64,000 nt of DNA from a virus. The DNA lies in IMG/VR virus record IMGVR_UViG_3300032665_000006, positions 62,001-126,000 of that record; one strand, 5' to 3'. The notes beneath the pieces were generated by a model that had not been told where the DNA came from, did no database searches, and saw only the letters and a program-made list of their open reading frames with translations. Position numbers and translations under genes: made by a program. This document shows, piece after piece, positions 4,067 to 17,038 of this stretch (position 1 is the first letter of the stretch; each line of letters begins with the position of its first letter).

Positions 4067-4662
4067 AGATAGCCTCCGATTGGCGTATCTTTTCGGTATT
4101 CTCGTTTTAAGTATGTACAGCGAATAACAGTATCAGTTGGTAGTAAAATACGACTGAATAAAATAGTCCAGAAATTTTGGTGTATACATTTAGTTTTTGC
4201 TGGCACTATACATTCGTCAAAATAATCATATCTTTCTCTAGCTTCTTTACTAAAAGCAAATCGTCTTAGTAACTTACCGTGTTTTTCTGACCACAATGTA
4301 TAAAATCTATATCTACCTTGTTTTTCATTATATGCCATAGCAGCATCTAATAACATTCTAACATGATTCCTATTATTCGATGAGCGTATCATAGTACCAT
4401 ACCATACCGGCTCATTAGGACTAAGATAAAAAGATATTAAAGCTACAATTTTACCGTCATCGTCTTGTAATCCTAATGCTTTATAACGAACAAGTCCTGC
4501 CAAATATGTCTCTACAAATGAACTGTGATATATTTTCTCGATAGGATTTGTGTCAGTGGGTACAAAATAACTAGCGTGTAAGTCTGTGCCCATAAAATTT
4601 TTAGTATAGAACAAATGTACAACTGCATCAATATGCGTATGGTCTAATTCTATAATTTTCAT
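4063..4662 (-). CDS. GNAT-like N-acyltransferase
   Basis: 199 residues. It shows a GNAT-like alternation: an N-terminal 'ELDHTHIDAVVHLF' helix start, a central strand KIVALISFYL, an expected acetyl-CoA-binding helix region (RNHVRMLLDAAMAYNEKQG), and a late Phe-rich strand. The classical R/Q-x-x-G-x-G/A loop is not obvious. It overlaps the PP-loop ATPase gene 5' of it and the oxygenase 3' of it. A second GNAT/PP-loop pair lies at 6421-7912. Acyl transfer to an amine is the family role; confidence is moderate because key residues are degenerate. Confidence 0.55.
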   Translation of the reverse strand: MKIIELDHTHIDAVVHLFYTKNFMGTDLHASYFVPTDTNPIEKIYHSSFVETYLAGLVRYKALGLQDDDGKIVALISFYLSPNEPVWYGTMIRSSNNRNHVRMLLDAAMAYNEKQGRYRFYTLWSEKHGKLLRRFAFSKEARERYDYFDECIVPAKTKCIHQNFWTILFSRILLPTDTVIRCTYLKREYRKDTPIGGYL

Positions 4663-5576
4663 ATTTCGCCTCTTAATTGTTTTAATGCTAAGTCGTATGG
4701 CACACCATCTAAGCTAAACTCTAATCTTTTAACTTGGTCGAACCCAATATCTTCATATGCTTGGCCATTGAATGCTAATAAACTTTCAAAACCATGTTTC
4801 TTTTCTTTTTTTCTAAATTGTGAATACATTTTTTCTAGTATAGCATTTTTACTTGATGCTGCTGTTAGTTTATAGTTATATTTGTCTGTTACTAATTTTT
4901 TAATACCGTCTGATTCTAAGTAATATAATAGTAATTCGGGGGTATAGCTATACCATTCGTTAACTAATGGAAGATTATACTTTAAACTAAATCGCATAGC
5001 ACTAGCATCTTCATTTTCTCGAAACGCATAATACCAGTAACTACCTGCGGGTTCAACTTGTCTTGTTACTCCGGCTTCACCGCCCATAACAGCTGGTTGT
5101 CCTAAATTTAATATATTTTTATAAACCATAATATAGGTTAGCTGAGTGCTTTGAATTTGCTCGCCAAACTCAGTAGCTTCGCCTGAAAAGAAAAATTCAT
5201 GTACATTAAAATCTATAATATGAAGTTTAACATCTAATTCTCTAGCAATAGCTTCTGCTTCAGCAACTTCGCTAGCATTGTAGTTATTTTCAAATCTAAT
5301 TACAGCACATTGTGGTTTAAATCCGTTGTGTATAAAATTACGCAGTACAATTTCGCTATCGGTGCCGCCTGATAAAAATAGTATAAGATCTTTACCAAAA
5401 TCTTCTCGTACTAAATGAGCAGTTCTGTGTAATTCTTCTTCAAAAGAACTTGTGCGATACTGGTCTGGGTCAACCGCACCTAACGAAACTACAAATTTCT
5501 CAACAGGAGTTTCTCGGTAACCATACTCTCGTCCACCGATTGTGTATTTTAAATGATTCTGATATGTAAAATACAT
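4659..5576 (-). CDS. PP-loop ATPase, asparagine-synthase-like (no glutaminase domain)
   Basis: 305 residues. The PP-loop signature SGGTDSE is near residue 69 (LILFLSGGTDSEIVLR), followed by a beta-strand and the FENNYNASEVAEAEAI helix region typical of asparagine-synthase C-terminal domains. There is no N-terminal Cys glutaminase domain, so ammonia or an amine would have to come from elsewhere. Family reaction: ATP adenylates a carboxylate or amide, then amide or C-N bond formation. It overlaps the desaturase stop/start at 5576 and the GNAT gene. It is closest in layout to the gene at 6986-7912. Confidence 0.75.
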   Translation of the reverse strand: MYFTYQNHLKYTIGGREYGYRETPVEKFVVSLGAVDPDQYRTSSFEEELHRTAHLVREDFGKDLILFLSGGTDSEIVLRNFIHNGFKPQCAVIRFENNYNASEVAEAEAIARELDVKLHIIDFNVHEFFFSGEATEFGEQIQSTQLTYIMVYKNILNLGQPAVMGGEAGVTRQVEPAGSYWYYAFRENEDASAMRFSLKYNLPLVNEWYSYTPELLLYYLESDGIKKLVTDKYNYKLTAASSKNAILEKMYSQFRKKEKKHGFESLLAFNGQAYEDIGFDQVKRLEFSLDGVPYDLALKQLRGEI

Positions 5577-6420: not shown

Positions 6421-6996
6421 ATGATTAAAATAGTTGACCTTGCTACTTCTTTTGATAAAACTTTGTGGGATCAATTTCAAAAATATGTGTTGACAACAAC
6501 CGATGAATTGAAATATAATTATATCGGATTGGAACCACAAGATTTTGTTTCGTTTCCTGCGGTAGTGATTGATAATGCAATTATATGCTTTAGTGCCTTA
6601 CAAGTCAATAGTGATTGGTGGGGTAAAGGTATTGGCAGAGTTAGTACTAGAATGTGGATACATCCTGATTACAGACATACGGGAAAGTTTACTAGCGGAG
6701 CCAAATTTCTCAACACTACTTATTGCTTACCGTTACAGCTAGCAAAAGCAAAACTAATTGGATTAGACTGTGTATTTATTAGTAGAGAGTCTAATTTGCT
6801 TGGGTTTGAAGAATATTTAAAGTTAATTAAAGTTAACAGTAAAGTTGATTTTGTAATGGAGCCAAGCAAATATGCTATTAACGGGCCTTGCTTAGTAGAT
6901 GATCCTGAAAGTATGAAGCAATGGGTTATGTTACATTATTTGACTGATGCGGGTCAAGATTGTTGGAATAGGAATATGAAAAAATATGTTTTATAA
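6421..6996 (+). CDS. GNAT-like N-acyltransferase
   Basis: 191 residues. The central motif region (WWGKGIGRVSTRMWIHPDYRHTGKF) resembles the beta4-alpha3 segment of GNAT acetyltransferases, including an 'IHPDYRHTG' acetyl-CoA-binding loop. The stop overlaps the ATG of the next PP-loop ATPase by 11 bases, mirroring the GNAT/PP-loop pair on the opposite strand at 4063-5576. Acyl-transfer to an amine is the inferred role; substrate unknown. Confidence 0.6.
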   Translation: MIKIVDLATSFDKTLWDQFQKYVLTTTDELKYNYIGLEPQDFVSFPAVVIDNAIICFSALQVNSDWWGKGIGRVSTRMWIHPDYRHTGKFTSGAKFLNTTYCLPLQLAKAKLIGLDCVFISRESNLLGFEEYLKLIKVNSKVDFVMEPSKYAINGPCLVDDPESMKQWVMLHYLTDAGQDCWNRNMKKYVL

Positions 6997-7912
6997 AAAT
7001 AATTGGTTTGCTTGGACATACGACGATGGCCCTGAATATGGCCCTAAACTACATCCTACAGCAAAATTTGAATTAGTTCTTAGAAATACAATTGATCGTC
7101 CTGTAAAAAGTTATTACGAGGAATTGCTAGAGAACGGCCGAGTTATTAGGGATACCTTTTCGGGTCCTCTCGATTTATTATTTTCTGGCGGTGTTGATAG
7201 TGAAATTATATTGCGGGTTTACAAGGATCTTGGCATTCCAATTAATGTTTACATTTTTAAATACGAAAACGATTACAACTTGCCAGAGTACACACAAGCA
7301 ATTAAGTCTTGCGATAAGTTAAATGTTACACCTAAAATAATAGATTTTAATTTACAAAAGTTTTTTGAAAACGAAGCATATGACATACAACAAAAAGTAT
7401 TTGCTTCGGCTTCTGGGTGGATACCACATATGAAATTAACGGAATATTGTGATGGTTTGCCTATTATAGGAAGTGGAAATCCGTATATTCGAAGAAGAAG
7501 TAGAGATATGTCGCAAAAATATCCTTGGGTATTTGAGTTAGATGAAAAATGTCATCATTGGGCGGTATATCATAAAACTATAGATCGTCCTTGTATAACT
7601 GATTGGTACGAATATTCGCCCGAAGTAATTGTATCTTATTTTAAATTACCGGTTGTACAAAAACTGTTAAATGACGAAGTTCCAGGAAAGTTGTCTAATG
7701 AATCTACAAAGGTACAAGTACATCAAGAATATTGGCCTGATTTAGATTTAAGACAAAAGCTAATAGGATTCGAAGGTCCACAGCCCGATAAATCTAAGCC
7801 CGATGTACAGCCATTTATGTTAGACTTTGGCAAAAAATATATTCGTGGAATTGTTACAGATAAAACTTATATTTTTTCAGAAGAAGAGTTGCTTAATCGG
7901 ATCGGTTCTTAG
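6986..7912 (+). CDS. PP-loop ATPase, asparagine-synthase-like
   Basis: 308 residues. The PP-loop is SGGVDSE (LLFSGGVDSEIILR, about residues 67-73), followed by a YENDYNLPEYTQAI segment matching the FENNYNASEVAEAEAI segment of the protein encoded at 4659-5576. The two are clear paralogues. No glutaminase domain is present. The start overlaps the GNAT gene, suggesting coupled translation. The 3' end overlaps the convergent Rieske gene by 20 bases. ATP-dependent amidation or amine ligation is the family-based expectation. Confidence 0.75.
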   Translation: MFYKNNWFAWTYDDGPEYGPKLHPTAKFELVLRNTIDRPVKSYYEELLENGRVIRDTFSGPLDLLFSGGVDSEIILRVYKDLGIPINVYIFKYENDYNLPEYTQAIKSCDKLNVTPKIIDFNLQKFFENEAYDIQQKVFASASGWIPHMKLTEYCDGLPIIGSGNPYIRRRSRDMSQKYPWVFELDEKCHHWAVYHKTIDRPCITDWYEYSPEVIVSYFKLPVVQKLLNDEVPGKLSNESTKVQVHQEYWPDLDLRQKLIGFEGPQPDKSKPDVQPFMLDFGKKYIRGIVTDKTYIFSEEELLNRIGS

Positions 7913-8779: not shown

Positions 8780-9019
8780 ATGGACACATTTAAAATTAAA
8801 TTTCAAGAACGAATCCCACGCAGTTTGGGCAAAGTTATTACTTGGCGCATTATCTTATCTATTCAATATTTCATTATTGGGTATGCTACTACAGGTAGTT
8901 TGGCAAAAGCCGCTGGCTTAGTTGGAATCACTACCGTTGTTAATAGTGCCATCTACTACTTACACGAAAGAGCTTGGAATAAGTCTAATTGGGGTAAAGT
9001 AGAAACTATTGACGATTAA
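8780..9019 (+). CDS. DUF2061 small membrane protein
   Basis: 79 residues, matching the DUF2061 pattern: a short amphipathic N-terminus (SLGKVITWRI), a hydrophobic segment ending in Gly (IQYFIIGYATTGS), a second one, then a YYLHERAWN motif. Two membrane segments in the inner membrane are expected. Function unknown in this family. Its 3' end overlaps the convergent PP-loop gene by 14 bases. Confidence 0.85.
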   Translation: MDTFKIKFQERIPRSLGKVITWRIILSIQYFIIGYATTGSLAKAAGLVGITTVVNSAIYYLHERAWNKSNWGKVETIDD

Positions 9020-10163
9020 TAGTATTCATTGGCCCAATTTTGTAATGTTGTATAAAAAATTGTAAGCCATCCGGGGTACCATCGTCTTTGTATTTTAAAA
9101 ACTTGGTTGCGTTTTTTGTAACGTAATCAAGTCCCTCTTGCCAAATTTTGTGTGCGGCGTGGTCTTTATATCCTGAAGTAAACCAAGTATCAAATTCACT
9201 ATGCCAGTCACTAGTTGATTTATCAGTTTGAAACCATGATTGGTCCCAATTAGAATATATTACTGGTTTAATCATTGGTTCTTGTATTAGTCGCCAAGTG
9301 TCAGAACTTAAATTTTTACGATGCCAAATTTCTTGATACTGTGGATTAGCTTCTAAGAACCGTTTAATTACATGGCATTGTTTACATAAAATATCTACGG
9401 CATCTGGGCTCCAGTAGAAAAACTCCAACGCTGAATTTGTGTAATCTTTAAAACTATCGTCAATCGGTACTATATTAACGCCTTTATCAGTAAAGTACAT
9501 ATGAAGATTATTGTTTTCGATAACAGTTCTGGGTTTGTCGATACCAACCACCATAGCTACTTTGTGTGCTTTATCAAATTGTTTTCTAACATCTTTAAAG
9601 TATGAATAATTATATCTTGTTACATTAAGAGGATTTAATCCTTCTTTACGGTCTAACACCCAGCTAGCATCTCCATACGAAGTAAAAGCATCGAATAAAT
9701 TTTCGGTTAAATCTAATATAGTTATTTTAGTTCTTGGAATAAGATGTGCTACTTCTTTTAAACGAGGTATAGTTTGTAATTGATGTTCGGCTCCGGTATT
9801 CCAACTAGCTTTTTGTTTAGGATCTAATACAACAAATTTATCCCATGCTGTTGACATATGGTTAACAACAATTTCATCGATATGTAATCCTTGGCGAATA
9901 AAACTCATTAAAATGTTGTGACTATCTGATCCACCGCTATAACTTAGTATCAGGTAATCGTACTTTTCTCTTAGATTCCTGGTGCGTTCGTCATATAACT
10001 GGTCTAAAGTTTTTTCGGGTTCCTTAGTCCAGTCGTATGCGGCAAAAAATTCTCGATTAAAATTCCATTTAACTTCTTTGTTAACTGATGCCGCAAATAA
10101 GCAAGCACGAATTTTAGATTCAAACTTGATACCATCTACTTCATAAAAGCTGTTAATAATCAT
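9006..10163 (-). CDS. PP-loop ATPase, larger asparagine-synthase-like subfamily
   Basis: 385 residues. The PP-loop SYSGGSDSHN is near residue 73, followed by LMSFIRQGLHIDEIVV. This layout (about 390 residues, PP-loop near 75, a 'DELYDLR/YKLR' helix before it, and a late 'F.D.YTNSALEFFYW' segment) matches the tandem genes at 14655-17038, so three proteins form one subfamily distinct from the 305-residue pair. It has no glutaminase domain. It overlaps the upstream flavoprotein gene by four bases. ATP-dependent ligation or amidation is inferred. Confidence 0.75.
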   Translation of the reverse strand: MIINSFYEVDGIKFESKIRACLFAASVNKEVKWNFNREFFAAYDWTKEPEKTLDQLYDERTRNLREKYDYLILSYSGGSDSHNILMSFIRQGLHIDEIVVNHMSTAWDKFVVLDPKQKASWNTGAEHQLQTIPRLKEVAHLIPRTKITILDLTENLFDAFTSYGDASWVLDRKEGLNPLNVTRYNYSYFKDVRKQFDKAHKVAMVVGIDKPRTVIENNNLHMYFTDKGVNIVPIDDSFKDYTNSALEFFYWSPDAVDILCKQCHVIKRFLEANPQYQEIWHRKNLSSDTWRLIQEPMIKPVIYSNWDQSWFQTDKSTSDWHSEFDTWFTSGYKDHAAHKIWQEGLDYVTKNATKFLKYKDDGTPDGLQFFIQHYKIGPMNTINRQ

Positions 10164-11119: not shown

Positions 11120-11593
11120 ATGATACAAAATCCAACAAAAGGTAGTTTAATAGGAACCGAACAGGATAAACTTGGAGCCACAGTATTGGTTAGTTTTATT
11201 GATGCTATAGGTGGATCGCCATTAGTTCCTTTGCTTATGAAAAACTTTGCAAAATTAATCGAAGACGGTCATGGTGCTAACTATGTAGCATTTGGTAACA
11301 AGAACAAAGCTGTTTATATAGAAGTTGATAATAAGATTGTGGGACATATCGTTTATTATCATATACCGGACGATTCGCTAAACACAGCCCGGATCATACT
11401 TAGTTGGGTTGACGAAAATTATCGACAACGCGGCCTTTATAAAATTTTACACAAATACTTTGAATTAGTTTTAAAAACTGCTGGGTCTAAGCGTATTGCT
11501 AGCTATGTGGCTATAGACAATATCGCTCGTTTATCGAGTTGCGAGTCAGTTGGTATGCAAAAACATTCTTATCGAATGGAAAAATTTTTATAA
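11120..11593 (+). CDS. GNAT-family acetyltransferase
   Basis: 157 residues from ATG 11120. That codon was chosen over a TTG three bases earlier because AGAGG lies 6 bases upstream. The acetyl-CoA loop region reads ILSWVDENYRQRGLYKIL (the R-Q-R-G-L pattern replacing Q/R-x-x-G-x-G/A), and the C-terminal strand is YVAIDNIARLSSCESVGM, matching 'N..a...ye..GF'. It converges on the amidohydrolase with a 6-base overlap. This is the clearest GNAT of the three in the cluster. Substrate unknown. Confidence 0.85.
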   Translation: MIQNPTKGSLIGTEQDKLGATVLVSFIDAIGGSPLVPLLMKNFAKLIEDGHGANYVAFGNKNKAVYIEVDNKIVGHIVYYHIPDDSLNTARIILSWVDENYRQRGLYKILHKYFELVLKTAGSKRIASYVAIDNIARLSSCESVGMQKHSYRMEKFL

Positions 11594-12658
11594 TCTAAAC
11601 AATTTTTCGGCATTGCGAAATGCTATATTTTCTATATCTTGTTCCGAAAGCCCGGAAACGTATAAATCGCTGGTATCTTTCCATTTGTTTAATCCGCTAG
11701 GGTCGTGGTGTGGATAATCTGTACTAAACAGTAATCGTTTTGGACCAACATATTCCATTAAAACATTAAAACTAGGTCTCATTTCTATGTCAATAGTAAA
11801 ATATATATTTTCTTTGATATAACTAAAAGGATGATTTTTACATTTATATAGACTTGGATCACGAGTATAAGACTCTGCTATATTCTTCAAAATTTTGCCT
11901 ATCATTAGTTGGGCGCCTTCTGTTAGTATTATTTGAAGTTTTGGATGTCGGTCGAATATATTGTCAGATAATAAATCATAAACGCCCATCTCTAATCGAC
12001 CTACAGGTTTATTATTTGCAATAAGTTTAATGCGTTCTGGTAAAGAATATGCTATATCGTGCTGCATTGAAAAATGCGTGAATATAACAATATCATTCTT
12101 TTCACACATATCGTAAAATTCCTCCATACGGTCAATAGCTGACCACGGGACATCTCCTTTTGTAGTAGGATCGTACACAGTATAATGTAAGTATGCTACT
12201 TTAAAATTATTATCAATAGCCCACTGTAATTCTAACAATGCCATATCCATATCTTGAAATGGCAGTAATGCGACCCCAAAGAATCTGTCTGGATATTGAT
12301 CTACGATATTTTTAACTACTATATTATAGCTATGGGCCATGGCAGCTCCAAGATTTTTTTCGGTTGAATAGTTAAACCTCATAGCTCGCTCCTGCGGAGC
12401 AAGCAATTGCATATCAACTTTCATCTTTGCTAAATCTTTAAATCTTTCGACTATGTTAGTAAGCCCGTATAAATCGCAATGAAGTGTATCTGGTTTGCTG
12501 TCGGTTTTGTTTATAATTGGATCTTTAGCATATTGTATATCAAACAATCTACCATCTTGATCAAAAAATAGCTTAGGTAAATCTTGTTTAAGGTTGTCTG
12601 GTACAAAGTCAAATATTTCTGGGGGAATAATATGACTGTCACAATCGATTATTTTCAT
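11588..12658 (-). CDS. Amidohydrolase-2 (ACMSD-like) metal-dependent hydrolase/decarboxylase
   Basis: 356 residues from ATG 12658 (MKIIDCDSHI), placed 5 bases after a GTAAATA box. An N-terminal D-x-D-x-H (residues 5-9), a central HFSMQHD near the second metal-binding strand, and LLFSTDYPHHDPSG, the catalytic Asp near the C-terminus, identify the PF04909 amidohydrolase family. Members hydrolyse or decarboxylate aromatic or lactone substrates. Direct neighbours are a binding-protein gene upstream and a GNAT gene downstream, so an uptake-plus-catabolism or tailoring link is possible but unproven. Confidence 0.85.
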   Translation of the reverse strand: MKIIDCDSHIIPPEIFDFVPDNLKQDLPKLFFDQDGRLFDIQYAKDPIINKTDSKPDTLHCDLYGLTNIVERFKDLAKMKVDMQLLAPQERAMRFNYSTEKNLGAAMAHSYNIVVKNIVDQYPDRFFGVALLPFQDMDMALLELQWAIDNNFKVAYLHYTVYDPTTKGDVPWSAIDRMEEFYDMCEKNDIVIFTHFSMQHDIAYSLPERIKLIANNKPVGRLEMGVYDLLSDNIFDRHPKLQIILTEGAQLMIGKILKNIAESYTRDPSLYKCKNHPFSYIKENIYFTIDIEMRPSFNVLMEYVGPKRLLFSTDYPHHDPSGLNKWKDTSDLYVSGLSEQDIENIAFRNAEKLFRL

Positions 12659-12663
12659 AATAG

Positions 12664-12670
12664 TATTTAC
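12664..12670 (-). promoter_or_regulatory. Late-like promoter box for amidohydrolase
   Basis: GTAAATA on the minus strand ends 5 bases before the ATG at 12658. It lies just inside the 3' end of the upstream gene. Confidence 0.45.
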
Positions 12671-13587
12671 TTCGATACATCCAAGATTTTGACCCATTTA
12701 TTGTAAGTAGGCTCTACTTCTCTTTCTATATAATCATTTTTTGGATTCATATCGATATTATAATCTTGTTCTTTATAAAAGTTAACTCTATTAGCTTTCA
12801 TAAAACCGACAGTTATACTTCGAACAAGCAAATCTATGTCTTTAGTATCACGACTTACAGTTATTCCAAAATAATTAACTAATGTAGGAACTGGAGCATA
12901 CTTAGTAATACTAGGAACTCCGTTGATTCCGGTAGGTTGTGCTACACCTAAAATGCGTACTTGTGACCCTCGCAGATTTAACGATCCATACGCATCTGAA
13001 ACCATATCTACTTGTCCGCTCAGCAGAGCCATAAGCTCTTCGTTGCCGCCTTTGTATCTAATTGCCTGAATGTCGTGATGACTATATTTGGCAATTTGTT
13101 TAACTAACATTTCGTGGGATTCTCCACCAACAGCAATGTTAATACTTTGTCTTGGAATTTTTTTATCAAACAAATCGCCGATTGATTTAAATTTACTGTC
13201 TGGTCTTACTGCGATAGCTAGTGGACTAGTTATTACTGGGCCAATAACCTTTAATCGATCAATAAAGTTATTTTCAGGATGTACAAGTGCTTCAAATAAA
13301 ACTTGGCCACCCGATGTACCTAATATTGATTTGTTTGTTTGAGGTTTTTCAAAATAAGTTTTTAATGCGATAGAACCATTTGCTCCAGGTCGTTCTAATA
13401 CAATAAATTTTAAACGCCCAGCAGTATCAGCATCACTAACAAAAGTTCTAATGATAGTATTGGCGCCTCCAGCACCATATCCTACTGTAACCACAACATC
13501 GTCTGACTCTGTAGTCCAAGGCATAGTATATGTGCCGGCCCATACCAAATTGCTAGTTAACAGTAATAATAAAAGTAGTTTTTTCAT
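12667..13587 (-). CDS. TctC/Bug-family periplasmic solute-binding protein
   Basis: 306 residues with a clear signal peptide (two Lys, then a run of Leu, cleavage after about Val-Trp-Ala at residue 17). Mature sequence motifs fit tripartite tricarboxylate transporter receptors: VTVGYGAGGANT near the start, LERPGANGSIA, then GGNEELMALLSGQVDMVSD and VRILGVAQP. Such proteins bind carboxylates in the periplasm; this family is most expanded in betaproteobacteria. No membrane permease is encoded nearby, so it would have to serve a host transporter or another purpose such as sensing. Confidence 0.9.
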   Translation of the reverse strand: MKKLLLLLLLTSNLVWAGTYTMPWTTESDDVVVTVGYGAGGANTIIRTFVSDADTAGRLKFIVLERPGANGSIALKTYFEKPQTNKSILGTSGGQVLFEALVHPENNFIDRLKVIGPVITSPLAIAVRPDSKFKSIGDLFDKKIPRQSINIAVGGESHEMLVKQIAKYSHHDIQAIRYKGGNEELMALLSGQVDMVSDAYGSLNLRGSQVRILGVAQPTGINGVPSITKYAPVPTLVNYFGITVSRDTKDIDLLVRSITVGFMKANRVNFYKEQDYNIDMNPKNDYIEREVEPTYNKWVKILDVSK

Positions 13588-13621
13588 AATCTAATACTTA
13601 TCTTGTTATTTGCGTTGCCAT

Positions 13622-13650
13622 AAAAAAAGCACTCCGAAGAGTGCTTTGAT
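13622..13650 (-). terminator. Rho-independent terminator with UUCG loop
   Basis: On the minus strand AAAGCACTC-TTCG-GAGTGCTTTTTTT forms a 9-bp stem with a UUCG tetraloop and a T run. It lies 16 bases after the stop of the DctP-like gene. Confidence 0.9.
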
Positions 13651-13665
13651 TTTATTACTATTTAA

Positions 13666-14622
13666 TTAAGCATTTTTAATGCGGTTAACCAAATCATCAG
13701 AGAAGTATGTAGTATACTTGTCATAGATTGGAGCCATCATGGCTTTGAACTTAGCAACTTCTGCTTCATCCCATTTAACAACATTAACACCGTTAGCACG
13801 GCACTCTGCTTCAACACGAATAGCGTCTTCAACACTTTCGACACGCTCAATCTTAGCACTAGCTACACCAGCTGCTTTCATAGCGGCTTGCTGTTCTTCT
13901 GTTAATGTATTCCAAAACTCACGATTAACGATGATACTAGTACAAGCAACATTATGCTCCATATCATTGATGAATGGTAATGCTTTGTCATTGTTTAAAG
14001 GATAGTAACGTGTGTAAGTACACTCGCCAGCTTCTACTTCACCGGACAATGTGCGTTCTGTTAATTCTTCAACTGGGAAGAATGTAGTTTCAGCACCTAA
14101 CGCATCAAATGTGTCTTTGATAACTGGCCCACTACTAACACGGAACTTAACGCCTTTAAAATCTTCTACACTAGCAATAGACTTAGTAGCAGGAATAGTT
14201 CTATAACCACCAGAGTAAGTAAATGCTAATGCTTTGATCTTTTCGCCGCCTTCTGATTCTAATTTACCTAAAAGTTCTTCACCGATAGCACCGTCAAATA
14301 CACGAGCTGCATGATCATGATCTTTAAACAAGAAAGGCATATCGATAACATTTAATGTACGGGAATAGCGATCAGCTAACCATGTTGTGTATAATTGACT
14401 TACTTGGATCTTACCAGCTTCCATTAAATCTAATACATCTTTTTTGCCGACTGGGACACCGTTGTTGTATTTTTCGCTGTATTCACTATCAGTTAATACT
14501 TCGATTTCGATCTGTCCTGGAACACGCTCTTCTAGCGCATCCTTGAAAAATTTAGCAGCACGGATAAACAAATATGCTGGATCGTGAGCAATAACCCACA
14601 CAATTTTTTTACTTTGACTCAT
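13666..14622 (-). CDS. TRAP-transporter DctP-family substrate-binding protein, without signal peptide
   Basis: 318 residues, with a strong AAGGAG 7 bases before the ATG and its own terminator. Family features: IPATKSIASVEDFKGVKFRVSSGPVIKDTFDALGAETTFFPVEELTERTLSGEVEAGE, which contains the conserved DLKGLKiR and EvyTALq-like segments, followed by REFWNTLTEEQQAAMKAA near the C-terminus. Oddly, the N-terminus is MSQSKKIVWVIAHDPAYLF with no cleavable signal, so the protein should stay in the cytoplasm. That argues against simple uptake. Codon usage is visibly richer in G and C than its neighbours, suggesting recent transfer or high expression. No TRAP permease is present. Confidence 0.9.
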   Translation of the reverse strand: MSQSKKIVWVIAHDPAYLFIRAAKFFKDALEERVPGQIEIEVLTDSEYSEKYNNGVPVGKKDVLDLMEAGKIQVSQLYTTWLADRYSRTLNVIDMPFLFKDHDHAARVFDGAIGEELLGKLESEGGEKIKALAFTYSGGYRTIPATKSIASVEDFKGVKFRVSSGPVIKDTFDALGAETTFFPVEELTERTLSGEVEAGECTYTRYYPLNNDKALPFINDMEHNVACTSIIVNREFWNTLTEEQQAAMKAAGVASAKIERVESVEDAIRVEAECRANGVNVVKWDEAEVAKFKAMMAPIYDKYTTYFSDDLVNRIKNA

Positions 14623-14654
14623 TTTTATCTCCTTTAGATAATGTACAGTTTTAT

Positions 14655-15830
14655 TTATTCGATTTTTCCGATAACATATCGATTGCTATATAAACGAAAA
14701 CCAGTGCCCTTTGGACGCAGATATTTGTGTTTAATATTCCTAAAAAAGTGGGTAAAATCACTAACAATAAGCTGATGCAATCGTGTTTCGCGATGATTTT
14801 TGTAAAACCAATAGTCATGACTAGCCATGAATACTTCTTTAGCTTTTTTAGCTTGGAAACTAGAAGTCATATCAATATCAGGGTATATAATAGGCACTAT
14901 AGCCCGTTCGTAAGTCCCATTCCTGCTAGCAATAAATTCTTTCTTTTCAGGCGACCATAAAGTTTCGTAATTTTCAACATATCTGTGTTTACTCCAGTCA
15001 AATATGTAATCTTTTATATACTGGTATTGTGGTAACTTAATCATTTTAATTATTTCGTGCGACTGTTTTATTACTATCTCGGGCAATCTTGGAGTTGAAT
15101 AAAACAACACAATATCAACATTATCGTAAAATTGATCAAATGGTTGTCGGGGAACATTGATACTAGCATCGTTAAATTCGGTATAAATTGTATCATTTTC
15201 AAAAGATAACTTTGGCTTTTCTATTCCGTAAACAACGGCTATTCGTTTGCCTTGATCAGCTAATGCTTTAAGATGTGTTAGTTGATCTAGCCGATATCTG
15301 GCAACAGTAGTAGGATGAATATGATCCGAAGATTGATAAAGCCATTCGTCGGTTTTATAGTCCAACATAGTTTTAAAAAAGTCATTAATAGAAATTTTTA
15401 TATCAGGATGCGACATAGATACTTCGTGTAAATATGGCATAGTAGTTAACAGCCATTCACTTGCGTTATTGCTAGCCGCAGTATCAGTTGATGCTTTAAA
15501 ATCTCGTAAGCCAGTTAACGGTACTCCGGCAACTACTTCGTCTACACGAATATTATTGTTTAAAAAACTGTGAAGTACGTTAGTGCTATCAGCACCTCCG
15601 CTAAACATAACTACAACATAATCATATTCATCTCTGATTTGACGTGCTCTAATTTTGTAAAGCTCGGTTAATGATAAAGTTGGCTCAATAGTCCAATTAG
15701 TTTGGTTGAACTTGTCTATATGAAAGTCCCAAGTAATATCAGCTTCAGTTTTGCCTGCTTCTAAAATAGCTTCAATTTTATCTAGATATACTTTATTGTC
15801 AACAATATACTTGCCTAAATATTCCTTCAT
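14655..15830 (-). CDS. PP-loop ATPase, tandem copy 2
   Basis: 391 residues. The PP-loop MFSGGADSTN is near residue 77, followed by VLHSFLNNNIRVDEVVAG. It is closely related to the adjacent upstream gene: shared segments include LSLTELYKIRARQIRDEYDYV, INDFF and KEVF..SHDYWF. The start overlaps the upstream stop by four bases. No glutaminase domain or metal-binding tail is present. Tandem duplication is evident. Function by family: ATP-dependent activation of a carboxylate or amide. Confidence 0.75.
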   Translation of the reverse strand: MKEYLGKYIVDNKVYLDKIEAILEAGKTEADITWDFHIDKFNQTNWTIEPTLSLTELYKIRARQIRDEYDYVVVMFSGGADSTNVLHSFLNNNIRVDEVVAGVPLTGLRDFKASTDTAASNNASEWLLTTMPYLHEVSMSHPDIKISINDFFKTMLDYKTDEWLYQSSDHIHPTTVARYRLDQLTHLKALADQGKRIAVVYGIEKPKLSFENDTIYTEFNDASINVPRQPFDQFYDNVDIVLFYSTPRLPEIVIKQSHEIIKMIKLPQYQYIKDYIFDWSKHRYVENYETLWSPEKKEFIASRNGTYERAIVPIIYPDIDMTSSFQAKKAKEVFMASHDYWFYKNHRETRLHQLIVSDFTHFFRNIKHKYLRPKGTGFRLYSNRYVIGKIE

Positions 15831-17038
15831 TGTATATTTTCCAAAAATTGTTTGTAGTGGCCAATCTTATAGCGTTGTGTGTATAATTTAAAACCAGTTT
15901 GTTGTGGTGACAAGTACATAGGGTTTATATTTTTATAAAATAATTTAAAATCACTTTCTAATAGTTGTGAAGTCCGTGTGTCTTTGTGTAATTGGTCAAA
16001 CCAACTACTTTGAGGCGGCAAAAAAGCTACTGTAGATTTTTGACACTGAAACACCGGAGTAACTGTTGACGGATATATAGCAGGAACAATACCGCGTTGA
16101 TAATCTCCTTTTATATTAACAACAGCACTATCGTTTGGATCCTTACTTTTCCAAAAGCCAGGATTGCCCATATTTCGTACAGCGTCTACTAACCAACGAT
16201 TTTCTTTTTTGTGAATATACTTAGCAGTTACATGACTCTGCTTAACTAAAACTTCGGGCATTTCTGGACCCCAGTAAAACAAGATACGATTAACATTAGG
16301 ATAAAGAATGTCAAAAGGTAACACAACATTATTAACTCCTAAATCAGTAATCATAGTATAAACATTACCGTGTTCATCATATCGCAACAACGGTTTATCG
16401 CAACCCCACACTATGCCTATGCGTTTGCCTGCTTCGGCCATGTCTTTAAGATACTTAAATTTGTTCAAGTCACCCTTGCCAGTTACTGAGGGTGTAATCC
16501 AGTCGGGGCATTTATAAAGCCAATCATCAGTTTTACTATTAATAATATCTTCGAAAAAATCATTAATAGTAACTTTGACTTTTGGAAAGTTTACAGAAAT
16601 TTCATGTAGCAATGGAAACAATGCGTATTTTGTTTCGCTCATTGTATTGCTAGCAGAAGTATCTTTATCGTTCCAATCCCAGTTACTTAATCCGGACATA
16701 GGAGCTGATCCAATTACTTCGTCTACATGGATACCATTATTTAAAAAACTTTTAATTACATTGGTACTATCAGCGCCGCCGCTACACATAACGATTACAT
16801 AATCGTATGAATCTCTAATTTGTTGGGCTCTTAGGCGATAAAGTTCGTCTAAGGATAACGCTGGCTCGGTAAGCCAGTCTATTTGATTGAATACATCTCT
16901 ATGAAAATTCCATCTAATTTCAGTAAGCGTTTTTTGTGCTTCTAAAACAGCTTCAATTTTGCTTATAAAAACTTTATTATTAACGCTGTAATGCCCAGCT
17001 TCCCAATAAGAAGCTGGAAAATTTTCGTAAAGATTCAT
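15827..17038 (-). CDS. PP-loop ATPase, tandem copy 1
   Basis: 403 residues. The PP-loop MCSGGADSTN is near residue 82 with VIKSFLNNGIHVDEVIGS following. It is a paralogue of the downstream tandem copy and, more distantly, of the gene at 9006-10163. The conserved late segment LFYWGPEMPEVLVKQSH parallels LFYSTPRLPEIVIKQSH in copy 2. Translation is probably coupled to its neighbours. The divergence between copies suggests two related substrates or a heteromeric complex rather than simple redundancy. Confidence 0.75.
   Translation of the reverse strand: MNLYENFPASYWEAGHYSVNNKVFISKIEAVLEAQKTLTEIRWNFHRDVFNQIDWLTEPALSLDELYRLRAQQIRDSYDYVIVMCSGGADSTNVIKSFLNNGIHVDEVIGSAPMSGLSNWDWNDKDTSASNTMSETKYALFPLLHEISVNFPKVKVTINDFFEDIINSKTDDWLYKCPDWITPSVTGKGDLNKFKYLKDMAEAGKRIGIVWGCDKPLLRYDEHGNVYTMITDLGVNNVVLPFDILYPNVNRILFYWGPEMPEVLVKQSHVTAKYIHKKENRWLVDAVRNMGNPGFWKSKDPNDSAVVNIKGDYQRGIVPAIYPSTVTPVFQCQKSTVAFLPPQSSWFDQLHKDTRTSQLLESDFKLFYKNINPMYLSPQQTGFKLYTQRYKIGHYKQFLENIQ

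Follow-up and report, generated by a model that had tools for sequence, protein, structure and literature searches.

By definition, a TRAP binding protein is a receptor that works outside the cytoplasm. The phage sponges Tad1, Tad2 and Acb2 act by stoichiometric sequestration in the cytosol and are presumed to be expressed early; to our knowledge, their family is unrelated to DctP. Solute receptors without a linked permease are represented by the orphan TctC/Bug proteins (PMC5812351), a binding protein encoded by a phage is represented by cyanophage PstS (PMC3429862), and the carboxylate selectivity of TRAP binding proteins is given by an arginine of the SiaP Arg147 type (PMC4646407). No precedent for cytosolic use of a TRAP binding protein was found in the literature searched, and neither a viral DctP family nor a cytosolic TRAP receptor was described in the open-licence literature covered; many of the matches there concerned the nucleotide dCTP, and automatic DctP names are present on some database entries. 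The phage protein reported here is read, with a probability of roughly 0.5, as a cytosolic, late-expressed and very abundant carboxylate-binding protein that would act as a trap or buffer.

The window, the whole stretch of 64,000 nucleotides that was analysed, belongs to a record of 133,477 bases from a T4-like phage, in the rest of which capsid-protein, scaffold, protease, portal and baseplate-like ORFs were recognized, mainly by inspection. The capsid ORF of this record is 77–96% identical to those of five other DctP-carrying phage records. The ORF at 13666–14622 (minus strand, 318 aa) matched PF03480 (DctP) at 2.8e-45 over profile positions 12–283 of 286 and scored 121.3 bits with NCBIfam TRAP_S1, for which the cut-off is 50. 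An AlphaFold2 model, built with the family alignment as input, had a pLDDT of 93.5, and its top Foldseek matches in the PDB were solved TRAP binding proteins with TM values of 0.84–0.86, including 4xfe (E=5e-26, TM 0.86). The product is therefore predicted, from profile matches and model, to be a complete two-domain DctP-family (TRAP) binding protein, in agreement with the initial annotation, which had described a full-length TRAP substrate-binding homologue. Its putative pocket residues are Q76, R141, R161, E200, R205 and H223. R161, which from an alignment with 4xfe and from the SiaP sequence we take to be the equivalent of SiaP Arg147, is matched by an arginine in 131 of 146 viral copies and lost in 15, and the other five residues are near invariant among viral copies. 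Whole-domain sequence, modelled fold and the putative carboxylate-binding arginine all place the protein in the DctP family. With a dN/dS of 0.06 against its nearest relatives, the window gene is under strong purifying selection, and residue conservation indicates that the ligand pocket is retained in the phage proteins.

The first β-strand of the model spans residues 5–11, so that no sequence stands ahead of the mature domain; the cytoplasmic-type N-terminus noted initially was thus borne out. The suggested check for an upstream, in-frame, signal-coding start found no ATG, GTG or TTG in the 21 codons back to the stop, and a missed start codon was ruled out. Signal-less homologues in other phages, also proposed as a check, were sought in IMG/VR, where a first scan with the window DctP as single query gave 20 loci and a profile scan gave 462 stretches encoding relatives, the best 80 of which were taken for study. 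The carriers are phages of several T4-like lineages; the phage-record collection contained no relative above ~26% identity. All 95 full-length viral copies examined begin at the mature N-terminus, without a signal peptide. In most, the start codon lies 1–8 residues ahead of a near-invariant motif, [KR]-W-V-[IL]-A-H-[ED]-P, usually with a Shine–Dalgarno sequence directly upstream. Maximum N-terminal hydrophobicity (KD12) was 0.2–1.45 in these 95 copies, compared with 2.1–3.1 in clearly exported bacterial relatives and 1.5–2.8 in TctC proteins encoded by phages in the same cassettes. Because the N-terminus is the same in every viral relative examined, chance was ruled out as the source of the signal-less form, and this conservation together with dN/dS excluded an isolated oddity or decaying gene.

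An independent argument for the cytosol comes from one phage lineage in which the gene is divided. About nine distinct loci have the break at the same position, immediately ahead of the arginine-bearing strand, so that an ORF of ~158 aa encodes the N-terminal half and one or two ORFs of ~162 aa encode the C-terminal half; split copies were recorded at L017:6001–7542, L020:6001–7539, L225:7287–8249, L228, L281, L288, L291, L307, L316, L319 and L320. Two alternative C-terminal ORFs are present in each of L017, L020 and L316, and a terminator-like hairpin lies between the halves in L017. Comparison of L017 with L020 gave dN/dS values of 0.03–0.07 for all split parts, indicating purifying selection. 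Assembly error was ruled out by the single breakpoint in about nine loci and by an independent viral structure library, which lists two DctP entries of half length (159 and 162 aa). A signal peptide would be required on each half if the halves were exported but on neither if they were cytosolic, and none was found on either. Such proteins would offer a natural two-piece binder, presumably for carboxylates. Judged from the absence of a missed start, the signal-less form common to many phages and the split forms, a cytoplasmic location of phage DctP is well supported.

The initial annotation had also stated that no permease is encoded, and neither DctM nor TctA was found in the 133-kb record. 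A search of 22 phage records (that of the window and 21 related ones, some of them fragments) by DctM alone, in which control genomes were positive, gave none, and the idea of a TRAP permease elsewhere in the phage was set aside; TctA was found in 3 of the 22. Phage-encoded TctA permeases occur at L142:3805–5097, L331 and L332, and that of L142 adjoins an exported SBP-like protein, DctP and a PP-loop gene. With the signal peptide for a periplasmic location absent from the window DctP and the viral relatives examined, and a linked DctM permease looked for and absent, the protein falls outside the definition of a TRAP transporter receptor.

The nearest clearly exported relatives, ~38–42% identical to the window protein, are found in Bdellovibrionota/Bacteriovoracaceae (L028, L032, L034–L037, L039 and L041), with a canonical signal peptide followed directly by the motif WVLAHEP. 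In a phylogenetic tree these exported sequences group in a single supported clade that excludes the signal-less ones; the tree requires the signal to have been gained or lost three times, in directions that it does not reveal. Signal-less copies also occur on a few bacterial chromosomes (L027, L029, L030 and L044). In two bacterial MAG contigs (L029:3784–6657 and L044:4150–6936) such a copy is preceded by genes for an MFS carboxylate transporter and a 200-aa protein, and L027:3–2117 opens inside the same arrangement; in Bacteriovorax the pair is flanked by flagellin and other genes. The L029 transporter matched an oxalate/formate antiporter model above its cut-off. A possible 2OG-Fe(II) oxygenase pattern was seen in the 200-aa protein. 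Bacteriovorax genomes contain both exported and signal-less paralogues. L031, a 504-kb contig of a MAG labelled 'bacterium', carries several gene clusters otherwise seen in viral contigs; it could be a phage of very large size that was assigned to a bacterial bin. A very divergent extra paralogue was noted at L150:4535–5596, with a DUF2061 gene between it and the family copy.

Sequence features around the gene point to strong late expression. The strong ribosome site reported initially is the Shine–Dalgarno sequence AAAGGAGAT (14627–14635, minus strand), 4 nt ahead of the ATG, and SD-like sites were found at 36 of 43 DctP genes from nonredundant loci. A T4-type late-promoter-like motif, AATAAATA, lies at 14652–14659 (minus strand), 36 nt ahead of the start codon, and matches NATAAATA. 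The motif NATAAATA, the late promoter of the T4-like cyanophage S-PM2 (PMC2984593), was found upstream of 24 of 43 DctP genes and of 60 of 409 other ORFs (p=7e-9). Shuffled upstream regions gave 2.3 matches on average and at most 7, which ruled out AT-richness alone as the cause. The contrast shrinks when the comparison is confined to genes preceded by a gap of 30 nt or more (20/35 versus 40/165, p=4e-4), and the motif is absent within 150 nt upstream of the capsid genes themselves. Just downstream of the window gene, a 9-bp hairpin (13647–13626) followed by a T run forms a putative intrinsic terminator (13619–13647, minus strand), as had been claimed; terminator-like hairpins follow 25 of 43 DctP genes and 23 of 391 other ORFs (p=2e-16). 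The different codon use pointed out earlier proved to be specifically virion-like. When codon adaptation was scored with virion genes as the reference set, DctP had the highest value of 96 ORFs in the window phage (0.773), above the capsid protein (0.744), its PP-loop neighbours (0.61–0.66) and TctC (0.64). Among nine other phages with a findable capsid gene, DctP had the top rank in seven and came second and third in one phage each. The gene thus looks like a self-contained late transcription unit at virion-protein level, and the protein is probably abundant; because codon use of the PP-loop neighbours is ordinary, these are not expected at the same level.

Late expression at coat-protein level would fit a virion protein equally well. 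The strongest rival is that DctP is an accessory decoration or tail-associated protein built on the TRAP fold, a reading that we consider possible yet on balance unlikely. Virions assemble in the cytoplasm, so a virion component would have no signal, and codon adaptation equal to or above that of the capsid protein and a late-type promoter would follow. In one marine lineage the gene lies within the morphogenesis operon, with tail tube or head closure genes on one side and portal or packaging genes on the other. Its settings vary widely, however, from this virion operon to the uvsX/helicase replication region, the vicinity of Fe-S genes and metabolic islands, and so no structural role can be deduced from a fixed place in the virion operon. 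Conservation of the ligand pocket is strong, inspection of the viral copies found no N-terminal extension able to serve as the capsid-targeting sequence typical of T4-like internal head proteins, and the linkage to PP-loop and TctC genes would be left unexplained.

That linkage is seen in the window itself. The gene at 14655–15830 (minus strand) encodes a 391-aa protein of the N-type ATP-pyrophosphatase family (PP-loop SGGADS; SGGxDS is invariant in this family, termed A3), the model of which had a pLDDT of 87.9 and a weak LarE/NAD synthetase-like core. Two A3 paralogues, at 15827–17038 and 9006–10163 (both minus strand), are 45% and 29% identical to it. All three lie in a 17-kb island that encodes five PP-loop proteins (4659–5576, 6986–7912, 9006–10163, 14655–15830 and 15827–17038) from at least two families, two of the proteins being QueC-like and three A3, in the company of TauD, Asp/Asn hydroxylase-like, desaturase, radical SAM, Rieske and nitronate monooxygenase genes. 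Across loci, PP-loop genes of two families, with the N-type motif SGGxDS, occupy 34 of 162 positions within two genes of DctP and 15 of 380 positions further out (p=2e-9); 12 of 41 nonredundant loci have none within three genes. In a reciprocal search of 80 loci of the window PP-loop family, DctP was found within 4 kb in 39 and TctC in 44, in orders such as P-T-D, P-T-P-T-D and P-T-D-T (P, PP-loop; T, TctC; D, DctP), whereas 79 loci of the second family gave DctP in 20 and TctC in 11. An identity of the partner as asparagine synthase, QueC or LarE was rejected, the PP-loop motif or nucleotide-binding core being all that is common to both; profile matches to known PP-loop enzymes were all under curated cut-offs, and Foldseek TM values were ~0.2.

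The neighbour on the other side (12667–13587, minus strand) is, as first noted, a TctC/Bug-type binding protein with an obvious signal peptide (PF03401, 4.9e-8; N-terminal MKKLLLLLLLTSNLVWA, KD12 2.47), and TctC adjoins DctP in 12 of the 41 nonredundant loci. The amidohydrolase at 11588–12697 is 98% identical to the copy in L002 (dS 0.07), whereas the neighbouring DctP has a dS of 0.43 and TctC is 59% identical, which points to a recent exchange at the amidohydrolase gene.

A phage metabolic cassette is most likely the setting of DctP. The phage protein would start where signal peptidase cleaves its bacterial relatives, and hence would fold and function in the cytoplasm of the infected cell. 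With a promoter and terminator of its own, it would be produced late and at the level of virion proteins, and it would bind a small carboxylate in the retained TRAP pocket, acting as a stoichiometric trap or buffer and not as a receptor for a TRAP importer. Within the cassette, exported TctC would capture the carboxylate, a TctA-type carrier (that of the host or, in some phages, their own) would import it, cytosolic DctP would hold it and the neighbouring ATP-pyrophosphatase would activate it. Strong late expression speaks for sequestration or buffering, recurrent linkage to ATP-pyrophosphatase genes speaks for a role in a pathway, and the retained pocket and absent permease fit binding rather than transport; abundance, carboxylate ligand, trapping and pathway order are all inferred. 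The initial annotation had imagined a cytoplasmic binding protein that sequesters a metabolite or carries a pathway intermediate: the location stands on sequence grounds and the binding role is consistent with pocket and permease data, while sequestering or carrying is conjecture. A point in favour is that bacterial signal-less copies adjoin an oxalate/formate-type carboxylate antiporter. Counted against the trap are the ordinary codon use of the PP-loop genes, the loci without a nearby PP-loop gene, the loss of R161 in 15 copies, capsid genes without NATAAATA and the weaker promoter enrichment in gap-matched genes. The fullest version, in which a widespread cassette captures, imports, traps and activates and a cytosolic TRAP receptor, two-part in some phages, counts as one of the infected cell's most abundant proteins, is put forward only tentatively.

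A cytosolic and putatively abundant protein in a stand-alone cassette without a permease, sometimes duplicated or split, could instead be a counter-defence sponge for a carboxylate-bearing host immune signal. This appears improbable, as late-type control would be late for counter-defence, the neighbours are metabolic and defence models show no resemblance: in a search with such models DctP, TctC and the PP-loop proteins of the window went unmatched, and one partner family matched the PP-loop of DndC weakly. It is also very doubtful that DctP leaves the cytosol by non-classical export or lysis, serving host TRAP permeases or removing outside nutrients. Fold and pocket are indeed those of periplasmic receptors, but the signal-less form is conserved and in places even split, and classical export was available, since TctC in these same cassettes has retained a classical signal peptide. 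A misannotated start or a functionless, decaying transporter gene found no support and can be dismissed given the lack of an upstream start, the low dN/dS (0.04–0.06) and the top codon adaptation.

As a cytosolic carboxylate trap or buffer, DctP would be a TRAP receptor turned into a permease-free phage protein with a coat-protein codon signature, present in hundreds of environmental phage contigs. If this is true, the infected cell would be stocked with a trap for small molecules, and phages would be intervening in metabolism through a protein that annotation pipelines classify under transport. With DctP-type TRAP binding proteins (SiaP, PDB 4xfe, PF03480) it has sequence, two-domain fold and the carboxylate-selecting arginine in common. 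It differs from SiaP-type proteins in having no signal peptide, no DctM permease and a near-invariant W-V-[IL]-A-H-[ED]-P start, and also in its virion-like codon use, late-type control and split versions. The Bdellovibrionota/Bacteriovoracaceae proteins share the mature N-terminal motif but carry a canonical signal peptide and form a separate clade. A stoichiometric mode would be common to DctP and Tad1, Tad2 and Acb2, whereas the ligand of DctP is presumably a carboxylate metabolite. Like DctP, cyanophage PstS is a phage-encoded binding protein, but host PstS is a periplasmic ABC-type phosphate receptor, whereas the window DctP is signal-less and TRAP-type (PMC3429862). Orphan TctC/Bug proteins resemble DctP in lacking a linked permease, and a TctC adjoins the window DctP, but they are exported and belong to another binding-protein family (PMC5812351).
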